Shown here in pieces: positions 2 through 9,432 of a DNA stretch of 64,000 bases. Both the position numbers and the translations under genes were made by a program. The DNA lies in NCBI GenBank assembly GCA_003963305.1, contig RXJR01000031.1, positions 124,001-188,000 of the forward strand, in the 5' to 3' direction. The stretch is from Candidatus Melainabacteria bacterium (GTDB lineage: Bacteria > Cyanobacteriota > Vampirovibrionia > Obscuribacterales > Obscuribacteraceae). The notes beneath the pieces were generated by a model. The model was not told where the DNA came from, did not search any database, and saw only the letters and a program-made list of their open reading frames with translations. Position 1 is the stretch's first letter. Each line of letters opens with the position of its first letter.

Positions 2-1138
2 CGCGGCGCAGTGGACATGCAACGCGAACAATTGCTGGGACTACCGCAACTGAAAATCGAAATCGATCGCAGCAAAATTGCTCGGCTTGGTTTGGATGTT
101 GCAGATGTACAGACGATTATTAGAGCGGCTCTGGCCGGTCAAGCCGTTACCGAAGTAATCGAAGGCACCATGCGCTTTGATGTATTGATTCGCTTCCACG
201 AGGACTACCGTAGCACACCAGAGCAAATCGGAAACATCTTCATCATCGCCCCTACAGGAGCACGTATCAAGCTCTCGCAGATCGCTAACATCCATATGGA
301 CAACGGTTTTGTCACCGTCAACAGAGAGAACGGACAACGCCGTACAGCGGTTCTGGTCAATGTAAGAGGTAGAGACCTGGGCTCATTTGTTGCGGATGCG
401 CAAGAACGAGTTGCCAAGAACGTCAAAATCCCACGTGGCTACAAAGTTGTTTGGAGCGGACAATTCGAGAATCAACAACGTGCCATGGCAAAGCTTTCGC
501 TTGTCGTGCCCTGCGTGCTACTGCTGATTTTCCTGCTGCTTTTCGCATCATTCCGCTCTCTGCGCAATGCCGGACTGATCATGTTGAACGTACCATTCGC
601 GATGATTGGTGGCATCGTTGCGCTTTTTCTATCGCACGAAACGTTATCTGTACCAGCAATTATCGGCTTCATTGCACTGTTTGGCGTAGCGGTGCAAAAC
701 GGGGTCATTTTGATCAGTTACATTATGCAGTTGCAAGAACGGGGCCAGTCATTGGATGATGCCGTTCGTGAAGGTGCTACAGTCAGACTCCGGCCGGTAA
801 TGATGACAGCGCTTGTGGCAGCAGTCGGTCTTATTCCTAAGATTGTCAGCCCGGGAACAGGTGCCGAAGTTCAGCGTCCGCTCGCTCTTGTAGTACTCGG
901 TGGTATCATTTCGGCCACTCTTCTAACCCTGCTGGTACTACCAGCGGTGTACAGACTGATCAATCAAAAAACGAAATTCGGTCCCAAAACCGATGAACCA
1001 TTGGGTCAAGAGGAAGAAGAAATAATCAGAGAAGCAAAAGCAGAACAAACAGAATTAGAAGAAGAAGCAAAAGCAGAAGCAAAACAATCAAATTCAGAAG
1101 AAGAAACAAACTCAGGTCTACCCGCAGCCAAGAACTAA
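2..1138 (+). CDS. Heavy-metal efflux RND transporter, C-terminal part (5' end outside window)
   Basis: Inner-membrane RND pump subunit of the CusA/CzcA (HME-RND) type, which drives metal-ion export with proton influx. The reading frame is open to the left window edge, so only the last ~378 residues are seen (a full protein is about 1000-1050). Visible parts are the end of the second periplasmic loop (the stretch AVDMQREQLLGLPQLKIEID is typical of this family) and the last group of membrane helices, including VALFGVAVQNGV-like and RLRPVMMTALVAAVG-like helices, which are RND signatures. After the final helix comes a long Glu/Lys/Ala-rich cytoplasmic tail (about residues 330-378), unusual for the family. 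Substrate metal cannot be told from this fragment. The bufferin-type operon 2 kb downstream hints at copper, by context only. Confidence 0.9.
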   Translation, partial: RGAVDMQREQLLGLPQLKIEIDRSKIARLGLDVADVQTIIRAALAGQAVTEVIEGTMRFDVLIRFHEDYRSTPEQIGNIFIIAPTGARIKLSQIANIHMDNGFVTVNRENGQRRTAVLVNVRGRDLGSFVADAQERVAKNVKIPRGYKVVWSGQFENQQRAMAKLSLVVPCVLLLIFLLLFASFRSLRNAGLIMLNVPFAMIGGIVALFLSHETLSVPAIIGFIALFGVAVQNGVILISYIMQLQERGQSLDDAVREGATVRLRPVMMTALVAAVGLIPKIVSPGTGAEVQRPLALVVLGGIISATLLTLLVLPAVYRLINQKTKFGPKTDEPLGQEEEEIIREAKAEQTELEEEAKAEAKQSNSEEETNSGLPAAKN

Positions 1139-1242: not shown

Positions 1243-1920
1243 GTGGCAAAAATCCTTTTAGTTGAAGACGACAAAACCGGTGCAGAAATTGTAGTGCACT
1301 GGCTGGAAGCCGAGAGACACAACATCGATCACGTCGAAAACGGAGATGATGGGCTCGAATACCTCCTGATGCGACAGTACGATGTAGTCCTTCTTGACTG
1401 GGATCTTCCAGGCAAATCGGGATTTGACCTGTTGAGAGAATTTCGCTCAAAAGGTCACACGACCCCGGTAATCATGTTGACGGGCAAATCAAATGTGCAA
1501 GATAAAGAAGACGGGCTAGACGGCGGTGCCGATGACTATCTAACCAAGCCATATTCACTGAAAGAATTGTCGGCAAGAATTCGTGCACAGGTTCGCAGAT
1601 CGTCAAATCTCACTTCCAATCAACTGGAATTCAAAGGCATCGTACTGTCGCCAGAGCAGATGCGATTGACCCTCAACGGAAAAGATGTACCTCTGCTTCC
1701 AAAGGAATTTAGCCTCCTCGAGTTTTTCATGCGCAATCCAGATCGCGTCTTCACAGCAGAAGCAGTAATGATGCGAGTCTGGAGCACAGACTCTGAAACT
1801 TCGACAGACGCATTCAGAAGCACACTAAAGCGATTGCGTCAGAAACTCGAAGCAGCTGGCGCTGAAGGTTCCGTCGTTGAAACAGTACACGGCGCAGGAT
1901 ATAGATTCAACTCGAAATAA
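1243..1920 (+). CDS. OmpR/PhoB-family response regulator
   Basis: Cytoplasmic two-component regulator of 225 residues, the usual length. The N-terminal receiver domain has the acidic pocket E8-D9-D10, the phospho-acceptor D52 in VVLLDWDLPG, and the conserved Lys in LTKPY. The C-terminal winged helix (about 125-223) carries the family signatures LLPKEFSLLEFF and VHGAGYRF. Start is GTG (GTGGCAAAAATCC); no strong ribosome-binding site is visible. No histidine kinase lies next to it in the window. Position after the metal pump suggests, without proof, a metal-responsive role. Confidence 0.93.
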   Translation: MAKILLVEDDKTGAEIVVHWLEAERHNIDHVENGDDGLEYLLMRQYDVVLLDWDLPGKSGFDLLREFRSKGHTTPVIMLTGKSNVQDKEDGLDGGADDYLTKPYSLKELSARIRAQVRRSSNLTSNQLEFKGIVLSPEQMRLTLNGKDVPLLPKEFSLLEFFMRNPDRVFTAEAVMMRVWSTDSETSTDAFRSTLKRLRQKLEAAGAEGSVVETVHGAGYRFNSK

Positions 1921-3105: not shown

Positions 3106-3435
3106 ATGGAACGAAATTCCAAACCAGACTTGACAGCTTTGCTGACAGCGCTCAGCATCACTTCAGGTGTAGTGGTATCCGGTCTTCCAGCTCTGGCAGA
3201 AAAATCAGAGGCTAAGACAGAAACAAAAACTGAAACAAAGACAGAAAAGAAATCTTCTGCTACCGATGAAAAGAAGATCGAAGAGAAGAAGAAATCTGTC
3301 ACTAAAAACCGTGACGTATCAGGTCGCGGCTGCAACTACCCTTGCGGCTGCCACTACGGCGGTAAGTCGATGAAGGGCAGTGGCAAAATGCCTGCTGCAG
3401 AATCAAAGACTGAGACCAAAACGGAAACCAAGTAA
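3106..3435 (+). CDS. Candidate bufferin-like RiPP precursor (secreted Cys-containing peptide)
   Basis: 109 residues. A Sec signal peptide (residues 1-31, ending LPALA before Glu) is followed by a Lys/Glu/Thr-rich stretch with TETK repeats (32-70), then a short core with three cysteines, C76, C80 and C82, in GRGCNYPCGCHYGG, and a second Lys/Thr/Glu tail. It starts 8 nt after GGGGGTG, a good ribosome-binding site. It lies 38 nt upstream of a DUF692-DUF2063 fusion gene. In known bufferin and HvfA systems a signal-peptide-bearing Cys peptide precedes DUF692 (MNIO) and DUF2063 genes, and Cys residues are oxidised to heterocycles that bind copper. The core here does not match the EGKCG or DUF2282 core types I know, so this would be a new precursor type. 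Assignment as substrate is inference from context. Confidence 0.65.
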   Translation: MERNSKPDLTALLTALSITSGVVVSGLPALAEKSEAKTETKTETKTEKKSSATDEKKIEEKKKSVTKNRDVSGRGCNYPCGCHYGGKSMKGSGKMPAAESKTETKTETK

Positions 3436-3473
3436 GAGAAAGAGCCAGCGCAAAACGGTCACAACTTCGAGCT

Positions 3474-5327
3474 ATGACTGCCAACTTTTCTGCATTGAAG
3501 AAAACGTTTCCTACGATAGGCGTAGGACTTGGTCTTCGCTCGGAAGTTGCTCAGAAGACACTCGAATCAACCGACCGCATTGACTGGCTCGAGATCATCT
3601 CAGAACAATATATGAATGCCGGAGGCGCCAGTAGAGAATTACTCGAACGCGCCTCCGGCGTTTATAAAATCATTCCTCACGGTGTCAATTTGTCGATTGG
3701 CAGCACCGATGACATTAATTCAGATTACCAAAAGACACTAAAATCGCTCATAGACAAACTCAATCCGCCCTGGTGGAGTGATCATCTCTGTTTCACCAGT
3801 CATGGTGGCACATACATGAACGAGCTCCTGCCGCTTCCATTCAATAAAGAAACAGCAAGATATGTAGCGGAACGCGGGCGCATTATACAAGAGTATATGG
3901 AGCGCCCTTTTCTGTTCGAAAACATTACTTATTACATGCGCATACCAGGCAGCACCATGACGGAAGCGCAGTTCCTGTCTGAAGTTCTGGAGCTTTCAGA
4001 CTGCGGCTTGCTGCTGGATATCAATAATGTTCACGTCAACTCACTGAATCACGGTTTTGATCCGATCGAATTTTTAGAGCAGATTCCCCTCGATCGAACA
4101 GTGCAGTTACACATAGCCGGGCATATCCATGCACCTGAATTCGACGCTTATGTCGACACACACGGCGCCCCCATTATCGGTCCCGTTTATAAACTGCTGA
4201 AATACGTTATGGAAAGAACAGACGTAAAGGCAATTCTGCTCGAGCGTGATCAGAACTTCCCGGACGACTTCAATGAAATCCTCTCGGAACTGGACGAAAT
4301 TAGAGCTATAGCCGGAAGCGGTATCCAACCTGCTCCAAGCGAGTTAGCAGCAAAGGGAAACCAGCAATCGCAGCTCAAAAAATACTCAATCACAATTCAC
4401 TCTCTGGTGAATGATAAACCAGCGCCGCCAGACAGTCTTGCCCGCGTCGAAAAGGTAATGCAACAACTCTGGATGGATCCTGACAAATCCGATCGCTTGG
4501 CCCAGGGAATGATAGACACTATTTCAAGTGAAATAGCCAATGAAATTGACACCAGCAGACTGCCCATCTATGTTAACGTCATCCACAGTTCTTATCTGAA
4601 CTCAATGACGAAAGCGTACCCATCGTGCGCAGCGATTCTCAAACCGACCTGGAAAAATATCGTTGCTGAGTACATTCAACAGTACCCTCCTCGCAGCCAT
4701 GACATGCTGTTGCTGGGCGATGCATTTCCGCAGTTCGTCGCCGACCGGCTTTTCACTCGGTATCGAAAAGCGTTTCCGTTTCTGCTCGAATTAGCAAAAT
4801 ACGAGCGCATCGAAACACAAGCTATTCACCACAAAGGTGTGATAGAAACTGCACCGCGTTGCTCTCTAGACACGCCGGAAAATTACATAAAATACAAACC
4901 TATACTTAATGCCACTCTGACCCTGCGGGAGTATGAATTTCCTGTACATCAAATTGATGAAAGACTTCGGCATTCAAAGCGAATTCCTCGTAACGTCAAG
5001 AAGTCCAAAACATACCTGCTCACATATCAAAATGCGCACAATCACCTGGTTCAGGACTTCGAAATTGACCAACATGCCGCTGCATTGATCGAACGGATGA
5101 CAGCAACTGATTCTTCATACGCCGAATTAGCTCAATTCGCATGCACTATGTTTCCGCCGGAGAATCCGTATGCCGCTGTGCAGTATTTTGCAGAGTTCAT
5201 CCAGGACATGCACCTGAACGGCGTATTTACTGGCGATAAACTTGCGGAAGTTAGTGATGAAGCCTGTGCGCAAGCCAACACAGACGTTAGGGATCCAGCG
5301 ACAGAACGCCCCACGGTCAAAGCTTGA
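3474..5327 (+). CDS. MNIO (DUF692, BufB-like) enzyme fused to DUF2063 (BufC-like) partner
   Basis: 617 residues, cytoplasmic. Residues ~14-290 are a DUF692 TIM barrel (multinuclear non-haem iron oxidative enzyme). Expected metal-site residues are visible: H69 in IPHGVNLS, H104 in SDHL, E149 in FENITYY, D182 in LLLDINNVHVN, H213 and H217 in HIAGH, D228 and H230 in DTHG, and E257. Residues ~310-600 match DUF2063: a central RLPIYVNV...AYPSCAAIL segment, then the PPRSHDMLLLGDAFPQFV motif and LLELAKYER. These two proteins are normally separate genes (bufB and bufC); here they form one chain. No strong ribosome-binding site precedes the ATG, so translation may be coupled to the peptide gene 38 nt upstream. 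Likely role: peptide recognition plus oxidative cysteine modification. Confidence 0.88.
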   Translation: MTANFSALKKTFPTIGVGLGLRSEVAQKTLESTDRIDWLEIISEQYMNAGGASRELLERASGVYKIIPHGVNLSIGSTDDINSDYQKTLKSLIDKLNPPWWSDHLCFTSHGGTYMNELLPLPFNKETARYVAERGRIIQEYMERPFLFENITYYMRIPGSTMTEAQFLSEVLELSDCGLLLDINNVHVNSLNHGFDPIEFLEQIPLDRTVQLHIAGHIHAPEFDAYVDTHGAPIIGPVYKLLKYVMERTDVKAILLERDQNFPDDFNEILSELDEIRAIAGSGIQPAPSELAAKGNQQSQLKKYSITIHSLVNDKPAPPDSLARVEKVMQQLWMDPDKSDRLAQGMIDTISSEIANEIDTSRLPIYVNVIHSSYLNSMTKAYPSCAAILKPTWKNIVAEYIQQYPPRSHDMLLLGDAFPQFVADRLFTRYRKAFPFLLELAKYERIETQAIHHKGVIETAPRCSLDTPENYIKYKPILNATLTLREYEFPVHQIDERLRHSKRIPRNVKKSKTYLLTYQNAHNHLVQDFEIDQHAAALIERMTATDSSYAELAQFACTMFPPENPYAAVQYFAEFIQDMHLNGVFTGDKLAEVSDEACAQANTDVRDPATERPTVKA

Positions 5328-6787
5328 TGTTTTCTCAGCGCTCCAACTTACTTTTGTCGATAGCAGGCATCATACTTTTGATGGGACCCGCCACCACCAC
5401 TGCGAGGGCAATCGATACACCTGAAAATCAGCACCACGAGCAAAAGAAACAAACGAGCAACGAACAGTCCGCCACAACCACAAGCGAAGGTCCTGCCGTA
5501 ACTGCCGAAATCGAGGTCGGACCATTCGATCTGAAGCAGAAATACCGCTCAATGGAAGGTCCTTATGTTCGGGTTCCTTTGAAAATTGCGGACATCCTGG
5601 CAGAGAAAAATGTCAGCATTCCGGAATCTTACGTCAAAATACCCGGAGCCGCACAGGCTGGGCCGGGCATGACTGGTAGTGCCGATGGGGCCTCGATGCA
5701 GCCGGGACGGCTGCGCTCCATGAGTAACGACGGGGCCATTAGTGCCGACGGGGCCGGCAATGCAGCCAATCAAAAACGAGAATTACTCTGGCTCAAGTCA
5801 GTAAAAATAGACATGCTGGACGAAAATGACAAACCACTGCCAGATGCTGCTTTTTTCTGCCATGCGACTATCGATGTCGATCTGGACTTTCGCAATCAAG
5901 TATTTCCGGCAAGCGAGCATCCAGGCAATATGCGACACATTGTCCTAACTCAAGGACAAACCCAATTCGCATTTCCAAACGGATTTGCGCTGCCCGTCGC
6001 CAGTGATGAAAGCTGGAATTTCGTATTTCAGACGATAAACCGCACCAGCGATGTACCTCGCAAGGTCAAAGGACGTTGCCTGCTCACATTCGTTAAAGAC
6101 AGCGAGCTTGTCTATCCGATCAAAGCACTCTTCTGGTACTACCCTGTAATCAACGTTGTAATTGACAGAAACTCAGCCGAGCGCATCAAAGCCGAGCGAA
6201 AGTCATGCCCGGACTGTAGTGCTATCTCAGAGGGCGTACCGGCACCATCTAGCATGCGAAACATGATCTTCACAGACAAACTCGGTCGCAGCCAGATTGG
6301 GCACTGGGTGGTACCGCCGGGAGTGCACACCTACGCCAGCCCTATCAACACAATCGGGTCAATGTCAACGGCGAAATTTGCTGCAGCCGATACCGACATT
6401 CATCTTGTACTTACACACGTTCATCCTTTCTGTGAAAAGTGTGTCTTGATTCAGCACGACAAAGGTCAGACCAAAGAGATTGTCACTGTAAAAGCAAAGA
6501 CAGACGAAAAGAACTTGCAACTAACTGAGATTGATACAATCAGCTCCGTACCTGGAATTCCACTTGAAGCAGGCAAGAGCTACGAACTGCAGGCAACATA
6601 CAACAACACTTCAAGCAAGCCGCAAGATTCAATGGCAGGAATGGCACTGTACTGCTCAGACAACAAGTTTGTGCGCCCTGACTGGGCTCTGGCGGGCAAC
6701 ATGAATGAAGCATATTGCGGCACCAGCTACGAGCAGAAGTCACGAAAGAAAGCTCACAGTAAAGCTTTTGGGATGAGACCCAATTGA
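5327..6787 (+). CDS. Secreted protein with copper-monooxygenase (PHM/SURNod19-like) C-terminal domain
   Basis: About 486 residues with an N-terminal signal peptide (LLLSIAGIILLMGPATTTARA). The ATG at 5327 overlaps the stop of the MNIO gene (TGATG), showing translational coupling. The C-terminal domain has WVVPPGVHTY, then H364-V-H366, and later YNNTSSKPQDSM-AGMALYC with M436. In peptidylglycine monooxygenase the CuM site is His-x-His followed by a Met 72 residues after the first His (H242, H244, M314 in the rat enzyme); the spacing here from H364 to M436 is also 72. C369 and C372 (HPFCEKC) add further possible ligands. The N-terminal half (FFCHATIDVDLDF...) is a beta-rich domain I cannot name. 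A copper-linked extracytoplasmic role in the operon is inferred. Confidence 0.6.
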   Translation: MFSQRSNLLLSIAGIILLMGPATTTARAIDTPENQHHEQKKQTSNEQSATTTSEGPAVTAEIEVGPFDLKQKYRSMEGPYVRVPLKIADILAEKNVSIPESYVKIPGAAQAGPGMTGSADGASMQPGRLRSMSNDGAISADGAGNAANQKRELLWLKSVKIDMLDENDKPLPDAAFFCHATIDVDLDFRNQVFPASEHPGNMRHIVLTQGQTQFAFPNGFALPVASDESWNFVFQTINRTSDVPRKVKGRCLLTFVKDSELVYPIKALFWYYPVINVVIDRNSAERIKAERKSCPDCSAISEGVPAPSSMRNMIFTDKLGRSQIGHWVVPPGVHTYASPINTIGSMSTAKFAAADTDIHLVLTHVHPFCEKCVLIQHDKGQTKEIVTVKAKTDEKNLQLTEIDTISSVPGIPLEAGKSYELQATYNNTSSKPQDSMAGMALYCSDNKFVRPDWALAGNMNEAYCGTSYEQKSRKKAHSKAFGMRPN

Positions 6788-9432
6788 TAACCGAAAAACG
6801 ATAGTCTGTTGATGCCCAGGTACGACTGAGCATGAAAACCGTGACCGGCATTCATTTCAACATTCAAGAGCACGGGGGCATCGCTCTGCTGAAGCTCTTG
6901 CAACGTGGCTGCGAATTTATAACTATGAGCCGGACTGACTCGATCGTCGTGGCTGCCGGTGTTGATCAGAACAGCAGGATATTTTCGCTTTCTCAAATTA
7001 TGCAAAGGCGAGTAGGCTCGCAATATTTCAAAAAACTTCTTTGTAGAGGCAGTGCCGTATTCGAGCTCAAAATGTCTCTCGGTGCCAAACTTGTGAAAGC
7101 GCAGCATGTCCAAAAGTCCACATCCAATCTCTACCGCACCAAACAGGTCAGGTCGTTGAGTCAGAGCCGCTCCAGTCAGTAAGCCACCATTGCTGAATCC
7201 TGAAATTCCCAAACGATCGGGCCGGGTATATTTCCGACGAATCAATGCCTGCGCAACAGCGATGAAATCATCAAATGTATGCTGCTTGCTTTCACGCGTT
7301 CCGGCCTTACGCCAATCGGCGCCCAGACCTGCGTCGCCCCGAAGAATAGCTTCGACGCAAACGCCGCCAAGGTCCATCCAAACAAGATCATAATTGTCGC
7401 AGGACGGGTCGACATCGCGATCGAAACCACCATAACCGGTCATGATTGTTGGATTGGCGCCATTCAATTTCAACCCTTTTTTATAGCGCACAAAGAACGG
7501 AATTCTGCTTCCGTCGCGGCTGCGCGCATACAATTTTTCGGTGACGAACTGCGATGTGTCCAGCATCGACTGATACGCAGACTTAGTAGTAAATTTACCC
7601 GTCTCAAAATTCAATTCATAAGTTGTCGTCGGTATTGTGTACCCTTCAACAAGCATTCGAATGTTTGGATAATCCATATAATAAATTTCATTCACAGAAG
7701 TGCCAACGGGAAGCTTGATGGCTGCCAGTTTCGTGTTTTTAACCGTATTCCATCTCTGAATAATTTCGCATTCGTCCGTAGCGTAGACGCAGACCAAATA
7801 TTCGCCCCACTTAAACGCTCGCTTGAGTAAATGCGGCTGTTCCTCGAGCGCTTGACGAAAGCGTGGAAGGCGATTCGATTTTGCACTTTCTTCTACTTCT
7901 CGAATAGAAAGGGAAACGATACGAAACAAGGGAGCATTTTTATCAGTGATAAAGAACACCCGATCATCTTTCTGCCCGATAAAATAGAATCCCTTAGACT
8001 GCTCTTTCAAAACATTTAAACGCCTGGATCTGACATTTTGAATTTTGATCAAGAATATAGAATGCCGAGTCTTTTTGGTACCATAAGTAGTGACCATCAG
8101 ATATTTATGATTTCCGATTATACTGATCGATGCGTACACGTCCGGCTCGTCGAATTTATAGATGACCTTGTCTTCAGCCTGACTGGTATGCAATTTGTGA
8201 TAGCGAATTTGACACCGATCATCACCTCGATCAAAAGCAGCGTAGTAAAAGCCGGTGCTGTTTTTGTCCCAGGTCAGCATTCTTGCATGAACATTCTTGA
8301 TCACGCCCCTGACCCGTTTGCCGGTATCCATATTTTTCACATAGATTGTCTGCCAATCAGACCCGTTGGTCATAACGAAGTACGCGATGTACTTGCCGTC
8401 TCGGCTGACAAAACTGTTACCGAGCCTGCAATTTTTAGACCAATCCTCAGAGCTCAAAACAAGTTGTGAAAATTGCCCTGGTCTTTCACTGCGGAACAAC
8501 TTTGTCGCTGGTTTGTCTGAGCTGAAGTAATACGGTCCAACTTTGTAGATCACTTTCAAAGTCTTCGCCGAGAACATCTTATGAACACGCTTTAGGACTT
8601 CTCCACGTCCGGGAATCGCCTCGAGATAGGAGTTCGAATACCGATTCTGAACTGCAATCCACTGCTTAACTTCATCTGCGTGCACCTCCTCCAACCAGCG
8701 ATAAGGATCACTGATCATTGCTCCGAAATGCTTTTCACTAACCACTTCTTTCCTTGTTTCCGGAAAAACGGTTTGGTTCAGCAAGTGGCTAACATTTTTA
8801 TTGGCACGTCGAAGTAACCTGCGAAGCATTTTCTTATGTGAAGGATCTTTCGCCTCGACGCTAAGGAGATGCATCAGCTTTTCGACTAATCCAGAAACCG
8901 CAGCAAGTGGAACATTCTTACTCTGTCGAACCGATTTTTCAAAGGCGTCAAAAGCTGCATCAAAGTCTTTCGTCTTCCAATAACAATAACCAACTTGCGC
9001 GTGCATTCGCTGTGGCCATTCAGAGTCCGTAAAAGCATTTGCTTCAGTCCACTCAATTGCCTTATTCAAGACACGCGCCGCTCTTTTGAACTGATTTCGA
9101 GCCTGCAACGACATGGCACGCCACCACATACAGTTCAATACCTCTGACTTTTTCAAGTCATCGTAAATGCGACCTGCTTGAAGTAAGTAAGGCTCACAAG
9201 CAGCAAACTTCTCACACATGAAAAGAGAGATCCCGAGCAGCCAATAAGCGTATGCCGCTCCTTCATCCATTTTTCCAAGCTTCGCGATATGGCTTTTATT
9301 GGAAAGCAATATCTTTGCCGCATTCTTATAATCTCCAGCTTTATAAAACTTGTATGCAGCACTATTGACTTCAAAACAATTGAAGTCAGCTTTTCTTTTA
9401 CTTCTTGCTCTGGCGCCGCTGGCTCGTCTCAT
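6754..9432 (-). CDS. Prolyl oligopeptidase family (S9A) serine peptidase with N-terminal TPR region
   Basis: 892 residues. Residues ~18-220 are helical TPR-like repeats; the rest is a complete S9A peptidase: DPYRWLEE at the start of the family region, a beta-propeller, then the alpha/beta-hydrolase domain with nucleophile Ser in GISGFSNGGLL, Asp in NTGSHDDRVSP and His in MNAGHGFH. Family members cleave short peptides after proline. No signal peptide is seen, so a cytoplasmic place is likely. A TPR fusion to POP is unusual; typical POPs are about 700 residues. The gene overlaps the 3' end of the copper-domain gene by 34 bp in convergent arrangement. Confidence 0.9.
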   Translation of the reverse strand: MRRASGARARSKRKADFNCFEVNSAAYKFYKAGDYKNAAKILLSNKSHIAKLGKMDEGAAYAYWLLGISLFMCEKFAACEPYLLQAGRIYDDLKKSEVLNCMWWRAMSLQARNQFKRAARVLNKAIEWTEANAFTDSEWPQRMHAQVGYCYWKTKDFDAAFDAFEKSVRQSKNVPLAAVSGLVEKLMHLLSVEAKDPSHKKMLRRLLRRANKNVSHLLNQTVFPETRKEVVSEKHFGAMISDPYRWLEEVHADEVKQWIAVQNRYSNSYLEAIPGRGEVLKRVHKMFSAKTLKVIYKVGPYYFSSDKPATKLFRSERPGQFSQLVLSSEDWSKNCRLGNSFVSRDGKYIAYFVMTNGSDWQTIYVKNMDTGKRVRGVIKNVHARMLTWDKNSTGFYYAAFDRGDDRCQIRYHKLHTSQAEDKVIYKFDEPDVYASISIIGNHKYLMVTTYGTKKTRHSIFLIKIQNVRSRRLNVLKEQSKGFYFIGQKDDRVFFITDKNAPLFRIVSLSIREVEESAKSNRLPRFRQALEEQPHLLKRAFKWGEYLVCVYATDECEIIQRWNTVKNTKLAAIKLPVGTSVNEIYYMDYPNIRMLVEGYTIPTTTYELNFETGKFTTKSAYQSMLDTSQFVTEKLYARSRDGSRIPFFVRYKKGLKLNGANPTIMTGYGGFDRDVDPSCDNYDLVWMDLGGVCVEAILRGDAGLGADWRKAGTRESKQHTFDDFIAVAQALIRRKYTRPDRLGISGFSNGGLLTGAALTQRPDLFGAVEIGCGLLDMLRFHKFGTERHFELEYGTASTKKFFEILRAYSPLHNLRKRKYPAVLINTGSHDDRVSPAHSYKFAATLQELQQSDAPVLLNVEMNAGHGFHAQSYLGINRLSFFGYQLGLIPKALL

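Follow-up and report, generated by a model that had tools for sequence, protein, structure and literature searches.

A three-gene unit with a fused MNIO-PME1 protein

The window, as we call the whole 64,000-nucleotide stretch of DNA analysed here (G000:C31:124001-188000), belongs to a Candidatus Melainabacteria genome of the order Candidatus Obscuribacterales (7.48 Mb, 44 contigs). We studied in it a locus predicted to make a ribosomally synthesised and post-translationally modified peptide (RiPP) and confirmed three open reading frames on the forward strand, which encode a Cys-containing peptide, a protein joining an MNIO enzyme (DUF692) to a DUF2063 partner, and a secreted protein. The first frame (3106..3435) gives a precursor peptide of 109 residues with a signal-peptide-like leader, a spacer rich in Lys, Glu and Thr, a core with three Cys and a charged tail. 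The stop of the peptide gene lies 38 nt before the start of the second frame (3474..5327), which encodes the fused MNIO-PME1 enzyme of 617 residues. The fusion gene ends in a TGA (5325-5327) that shares a base with the ATG (5327-5329) of the third gene, and this TGATG stop-start overlap (5325..5329) bears out the translational coupling proposed in a preliminary description of the locus. Because the ATG at 5327 overlaps the preceding stop, it is the likely start of the third protein (5327..6787, 486 residues), rather than the TTG listed at 5324. The fasciclin gene to the left (2035-2718) is directed away from these genes, and on the right a convergent TPR/prolyl oligopeptidase gene (6754-9432) overlaps the end of the third frame. 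Given the spacing, the coupling and the directions of the flanking genes, the three genes form one short operon-like unit.

The fused enzyme keeps the conserved residues of MNIO proteins

Three Pfam domains score above their cut-offs in the fusion. The MNIO domain PF05114 covers residues 16-279 (3519..4310) with 305.9 bits against a cut-off of 25. It is followed in the partner half by the DUF2063 domain PF09836 at residues 347-422 (4512..4739; 39.4 against 27.2) and by the RRE-type domain NGO1945_C, PF22106, at residues 481-580 (4914..5213; 37.7 against 27). An AlphaFold model built from 28 sequences (pLDDT 87.2, pTM 0.85) contains both folds in the single 617-residue frame, so that the claim of an MNIO and a DUF2063 part in one protein stands. 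The N-terminal half of the model matches TglH (8hi7_B, Z 32.1) and 3bww (Z 27.5), the latter being also the nearest solved sequence, while the C-terminal half (residues 363-590) matches NGO1945 (3dee, Z 16.2). An alignment that included full-length partner proteins misplaced their N-termini onto the MNIO half, and these were trimmed before modelling. A scan of the genome contigs with the fused protein found no relatives.

We picked nine candidate metal-ligand positions from motifs conserved with 3BWW. The corresponding residues (H69, H104, E149, D182, N185, H213, D228, H230 and E257) do not vary among the 58 MNIO proteins aligned, and D259 of the fusion corresponds to D249 of FonB, proposed as the catalytic Asp. 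The window enzyme thus shares the set HHEDNHDHE plus D259 with 57 further MNIO proteins of the order, indicating at the level of sequence that the fusion keeps the conserved MNIO active site. The FonB residue comparison differs at Arg16, whose equivalent in the window enzyme is Ser23.

The preliminary description presented the fusion as a novelty that removes doubt about the partnership of the two domains. The architecture is not new. It has been on record since 2009, when one of 216 DUF2063 proteins was found with an N-terminal DUF692 domain (PMC2954202), and it recurs in Candidatus Obscuribacterales. Nor was there a doubt to remove: the MNIO-PME1 heterodimer has been shown by native mass spectrometry for FonBC (PMC13097082), and the MNIO-partner complexes TglHI and MbnBC are present in the PDB. 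With the FonBC heterodimer already shown, the fusion agrees with known biology and does not itself settle the partnership.

An MNIO match is found in 48 of 53 genomes of the order, and most operons have separate genes. Single-chain forms of MNIO and partner are L037, L039, L044, L048 and L084, together with longer ones that bear a methyltransferase. Translated searches suggested further full-length fusions in G003, G014, G007, G012, G036 and G037; these have stops between the genes and were rejected. On a tree of the MNIO domain four or five changes of fused state are needed, at least two of them forced by well-supported branches. A single origin of all fusions but L048 could not be rejected (p-AU 0.25); L048 stands separate, and therefore the fusion arose at least twice. 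In this tree the window enzyme has a long branch (0.62-0.75) and no supported sister.

The fusion could also be an assembly error that deleted the stop codon between two adjacent genes. The species is represented by one assembly, and in G003 (L035/L006) the two genes do lie in one frame, separated by a single TAG, so that one wrong base would suffice. The junction in the window, however, runs through 60-70 residues without stops, and the same domain order occurs in fusions from several genomes of the order. We regard such an error as very improbable.

The precursor combines a shared leader with a new core

The leader (3106..3198, MERNSKPDLTALLTALSITSGVVVSGLPALA) is probably a Sec-type signal peptide, judging by eye from its hydrophobic stretch and an AxA-type site between LPALA and E. 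The putative modified core (3322..3363, GRGCNYPCGCHYGG) contains the only Cys of the peptide, C76, C80 and C82.

Two canonical precursor types are found in the order. The first is exemplified by MQKTQLAAALVAVLGL...KGKEGSCKGKEGSCK; in the second the leaders resemble MQRLSKTELTALLTVLGLSS and the cores EMACGKGACGADEKG. Whole-peptide tblastn without composition correction gave E values down to 6e-9 that partly reflect the tails rich in Lys, Glu and Thr, and for this reason only the leader was tested against shuffled sequences. Aligned to the L050 peptide of the same genome, the window leader scores 65, while shuffles score 21.8 +/- 4.3 and none of 2000 reaches as high. The leaders of L034 and L008 likewise score above all shuffles, but the MQKTQL type does not. 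Related leaders occur in L050, L034, L008 and L054, and the own-genome precursor adjoins a separate MNIO/DUF2063 pair. These comparisons place the window leader in the second precursor lineage, that of canonical operons of the same genome and order, a relationship that the preliminary description overlooked. Its central proposal of a Sec-type Cys precursor within an MNIO RiPP operon is upheld.

The core is a different matter. A protein search of the 53 genomes of the order returned nothing beyond weak matches; these include the L034 precursor, and the window core is absent from all of them. When 386 genomes of the phylum were scanned at the DNA level for YPCGCHYG, the single occurrence was that of the window, and the plasmids searched hold no relative of the peptide. 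An order-wide search for CxxPCGCH matched a place in G013, which we rejected as unrelated sequence whose local frames (for example a minus-strand frame of 337 residues) are unlike a precursor. The anticipated conservation of the peptide beside MNIO genes therefore holds for the leader, found beside related MNIOs, and fails for the core, found in the window only.

The peptide has no DUF2282 match and no EGKCG, and its C-x3-C-x-C arrangement falls, by eye and by the published descriptions, outside the 6/12-Cys and CxxxxC types. This agrees with the earlier claim that the core is unlike the named precursor families, although that claim took DUF2282 and EGKCG peptides to be the only known ones. 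Buf_6/12Cys, CxxxxC and adjamnio-3 precursors and hundreds of unclassified signal-peptide Cys peptides have also been described (PMC12452194). As far as the searched collections show, the window core appears to be new.

Core and enzyme may also vary together. Arg15 and Arg16 of FonB contact the Glu at position 1 of EGKCG (PMC13097082). In the order, LGLRR(E/D) is the reading of nearly every canonical enzyme, accompanied by EGSCK-like cores. The window has LGLRSE in the enzyme and no Glu in the core. Where operons encode long signal-less Cys repeats, the enzyme has LRG, LRS, LRT or LRN, and exceptions to the pattern occur in the divergent pair L040/L048. These sequences are suggestive of a contact Arg that changes together with the loss of the core Glu; we attach no statistic to this covariation because the sequences are related by descent.

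Such differences raise the question of whether the same machinery yields another product, that is, a modification other than 5-thiooxazole or a peptide with a role in a different metal or stress response. Several reactions are known from MNIOs, and gold or mercury has been tied to some bufferin operons (PMC12452194), the contact residue Ser23 is unlike that of the canonical enzymes, and the core CNYPCGCHYGG lacks a Lys-Cys or Cys-Lys dyad. Every characterised MNIO-PME1 pair, on the other hand, installs 5-thiooxazole on Cys (PMC13097082), and the catalytic Asp and metal ligands of the window enzyme are intact. We consider another product unlikely.

The third protein is predicted to have a PHM/DBH fold

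No Pfam family was found for the third protein, and no copper monooxygenase model matched it or six of its relatives at E up to 1. The fold was revealed by a structure model (pLDDT 75.9, core blocks above 90), for which Foldseek gave 1.6e-7 to PHM/dopamine beta-hydroxylase (DBH) in the PDB. The top folds are all PHM/DBH (Z 16.8 for 4zel_A and 16.5 for 6ala_A), and the next other fold, PNGase, follows at 8.3. A PDB search with a PHM-like profile had a sole match to isopentenyl-diphosphate isomerase (E 0.007), rejected as a chance match, and NCBIfam and PHROGs searches for the PHM-like protein gave nothing useful. The preliminary description had not noticed this fold.

In PHM the CuM site is formed by H242, H244 and M314 and the CuH site by H107, H108 and H172. 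An alignment of the third protein with 17 relatives has 51 invariant columns, among them a CuM-like triad of H364 (6416-6418), H366 (6422-6424) and M436 (6632-6634). The mapping of ligands was made by spacing and not by residue-level superposition: H364 and M436 lie 72 residues apart, as do H242 and M314 in PHM, and the offset of 122 is also found at the aligned ends (449/327). By the same spacing C178-H179 replace H107-H108 in a CuH-like site, and the counterpart of H172 is a near-invariant His at column 244 that is Pro in the window protein. Since the CuM-like site is retained but the CuH-like one is degraded, the third protein is more probably a mononuclear copper protein than a fully active PHM. 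We predict from the model an exported protein with a type II copper monooxygenase (PHM/DBH) fold and a retained CuM-like site.

Relatives of the third protein occur in 12 of the 53 genomes of the order, and farther ones in a few metagenome-assembled genomes of Myxococcales, Gammaproteobacteria and Verrucomicrobia. Several carry one or two cyclophilin domains after the PHM-fold domain. About two thirds of the family have a (Y/F)CG(I/V/T) motif right after this domain (L056, L062, L064, L066-L069, L071, L072, L092, L102 and the window protein, 5327-6787).

One conceivable role of the PHM-fold protein is further tailoring of the peptide after export, as a second enzyme that would, for example, hydroxylate the alpha-carbon of a Gly within the GG-rich core. 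Such a role would fit the strict TGATG coupling, the retention of the oxygen-activating CuM triad within a PHM fold and the Gly-rich core. PHM, however, needs the CuH site as well, where the window protein has Cys-His and the Pro at column 244 in place of the third His, and the C-terminus of the peptide is not Gly. Moreover the genes of the relatives lie at a distance from MNIO genes, and fusions to cyclophilin domains are frequent among them, which argues that the PHM-fold family has another general role. A tailoring function is accordingly quite unlikely in our estimation.

History of the locus in congeners

Two congeners preserve parts of the neighbourhood. G001 retains the RND, response regulator, fasciclin, prolyl oligopeptidase and HAD-like genes and has no trace of the operon. 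G002 retains the HAD-like gene, part of the TPR region of the oligopeptidase gene and the response regulator, and between these retained neighbours (L143:10044-10172, G002:C159) it carries a remnant of the third gene, 43 residues at 72% identity and 105 bp at 77%. The third gene was therefore present in the ancestor shared with G002, was lost or broken twice, and is older than the window species. We infer that the peptide and the enzyme were present in that ancestor too.

This history may be read as that of a decaying relic, in which the operon no longer functions in the window species and the divergent core and the fusion result from relaxed selection. The absence or decay of the operon in both congeners would fit, as would the unique core, the long MNIO branch and the lost CuH-like His. 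Against it stand three frames intact over 3.7 kb, a complete set of MNIO ligands, a clean TGATG overlap and a conserved leader, and we hold this explanation to be improbable.

A probable divergent member of the MNIO-PME1 systems

Taken together, these results favour a divergent member of the MNIO-PME1 (bufferin/captophorin-like) RiPP operons, probably for periplasmic copper handling, and we consider this the likely explanation of the locus. We infer the chemistry, export and copper binding by analogy with characterised MNIO-PME1 systems, whose products bind copper (PMC13097082). Within the fused enzyme, the C-terminal half, DUF2063 and RRE-type, would bind the precursor by its leader, and one or more Cys of the core would be oxidised by the MNIO half of that chain, most likely to 5-thiooxazoles. 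The preferred sites would be C76 (G-C-N) and C82 (G-C-H), because C80 follows Pro79 and FonBC is intolerant of Pro at all core positions (PMC13097082). The modified peptide would be exported by Sec and then bind Cu(I) outside the cytoplasm. The PHM-fold protein, which would be made from the same message and exported as well, keeps one CuM-like site and would share copper in that compartment. This copper sharing is the modest reading of the third protein, and peptide tailoring is the bold one. A more specific relationship, with a dedicated PHM-fold copper protein outside the cytoplasm that the peptide of the fused maturase loads or protects, or by which the peptide is itself oxidised, is a doubtful proposition at present.

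With captophorins and Buf_EGKCG-oxazolins (HvfABC, FonABC) the window operon shares a Sec-type Cys precursor directly upstream of an MNIO and a PME1 of the DUF2063 plus RRE type, the MNIO ligands and the catalytic Asp, and the close precursors of its genome bear EGSCK-like repeats. It differs from them in its fused MNIO and PME1, in a three-Cys core without an EGKCG/EGSCK repeat, in the Ser at the Arg16 equivalent, in having no DoxX and in its extra PHM-fold gene. With the bufferins Buf1 (DUF2282) and Buf2 (Buf_6/12Cys) it shares MNIO, PME1 and a secreted Cys precursor, but its precursor lacks a DUF2282 match and has three Cys against four or 6/12. Other DUF692-DUF2063 fusions (PMC2954202; L037, L039, L044, L048, L084) have the same N-terminal MNIO and C-terminal DUF2063-type partner, whereas their neighbouring precursors consist of other Cys repeats (for example ETPSTRCK and FKCAFLIK) and no PHM-fold gene was seen adjoining them. 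The third protein, finally, resembles PHM and DBH in its two-domain fold and in H-x-H and Met CuM ligands at PHM spacing, and departs from them in its Cys-His CuH-like site and about 10% identity.

Several observations weigh against a copper-handling MNIO-PME1 operon. Only a single assembly contains the core. The enzyme falls under the NCBIfam equivalog cut-offs for BufB (NF050167, 273.6 against 310 bits), HvfB (NF003818, 258.5 against 360 bits) and HvfC (NF050145, 85.5 against 142 bits), although judging by these profiles it is related to all three. The CuH-like site is degraded and no longer offers all three of the His that PHM requires. None of the flanks read around relatives of the third protein holds an MNIO gene, so that a single operon is all that connects this protein with the peptide. 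Being absent in G001 and decayed in G002, the operon is dispensable. Neither a regulator nor a metal-responsive promoter of the operon has been shown, and promoter- and terminator-like matches occur at chance level.

Upstream of the operon the window contains the C-terminal part of a heavy-metal efflux RND gene of the CusA/CzcA family (11..1138, forward strand, start outside the window; TIGR00914, 1131 bits against a cut-off of 701) and an adjoining OmpR/PhoB-type response regulator (1243..1920, forward strand). These genes, 1-3 kb away, fit metal stress and lie outside the operon itself. In the interval separating the operon from the divergent fasciclin gene, a 21-bp tandem repeat (AATCGGCAGACGGCTCAGATG) is present in four copies (2750-2839).

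Other MNIO operons of the order

The survey of the order brought up further MNIO arrangements. Single proteins of 807-850 residues combine MNIO, a DUF2063-like part and a C-terminal S-adenosylmethionine (SAM) methyltransferase (L038:5276-8856, L041 in G001:C14, L042 in G002:C104, L043 in G030:C60, L085 in G071:C18 and L086 in G067:C8); Pfam matches were seen in L038, L041 and L085, while L042, L043 and L086 were assigned by length and similarity. Most of them are preceded by long Cys-repeat proteins without a signal peptide (for example LPSDLVKCVAMLPHEELLP and LCVAKMPQPGDPP), and this is possibly a RiPP type more novel than the window operon. Upstream of the fused genes L037 (G013:C55) and L044 (G030:C15) lie precursors with ETPSTRCKVEIPGNKCK-like or PPEQRCKGRPPVERCN-like repeats that are cut by contig ends.

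At L052:4547-6252 (G000:C5) and L088 an MNIO without DUF2063 adjoins a membrane protein that is TIGR04222-like and has a GCGGGCGGCGG tail; in L052 the frames overlap. At L053:4954-7152 (G000:C4) a divergent MNIO of 390 residues lies behind a secreted protein of 337 residues ending in GGCGHVVWWVVDVKEQVGYDCGMG, a possible protein-sized substrate. L040 and L048 form a deep MNIO sub-branch in which LEWD replaces LERD near the catalytic Asp, and their small Cys precursors contain KKCSGKSGCSGK and ESCKGKDGCG. The MNIO frames of L009, L014, L016 and L017 have about 100 extra N-terminal residues with repeats rich in Lys, Ala, Pro and Arg; these are probably the upstream EGSCK precursor region in another frame, and the start sites therefore need care.

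Implications

Candidatus Obscuribacterales is rich in MNIO operons, including several core types outside the named families. The shared leader and replaced core of the window peptide fit a general rule for MNIO-PME1 systems in which the leader is conserved for recognition, the core is evolvable and the Arg in contact with the substrate changes when the core loses its Glu. The natural one-chain enzyme fixes the 1:1 stoichiometry that otherwise needs co-expression, which makes it a convenient reagent and a good target for a structure of enzyme plus precursor. A literature search found no paper linking MNIO operons to a PHM-type protein, and a PHM-fold partner in an MNIO operon is new as far as the searched collections show. 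If its peptide does serve a dedicated PHM-fold protein, the window operon would be the first link of MNIO metallophores to PHM-type copper proteins, and the coupled gene offers a testable link between copper-binding RiPPs and the copper oxygenase fold.

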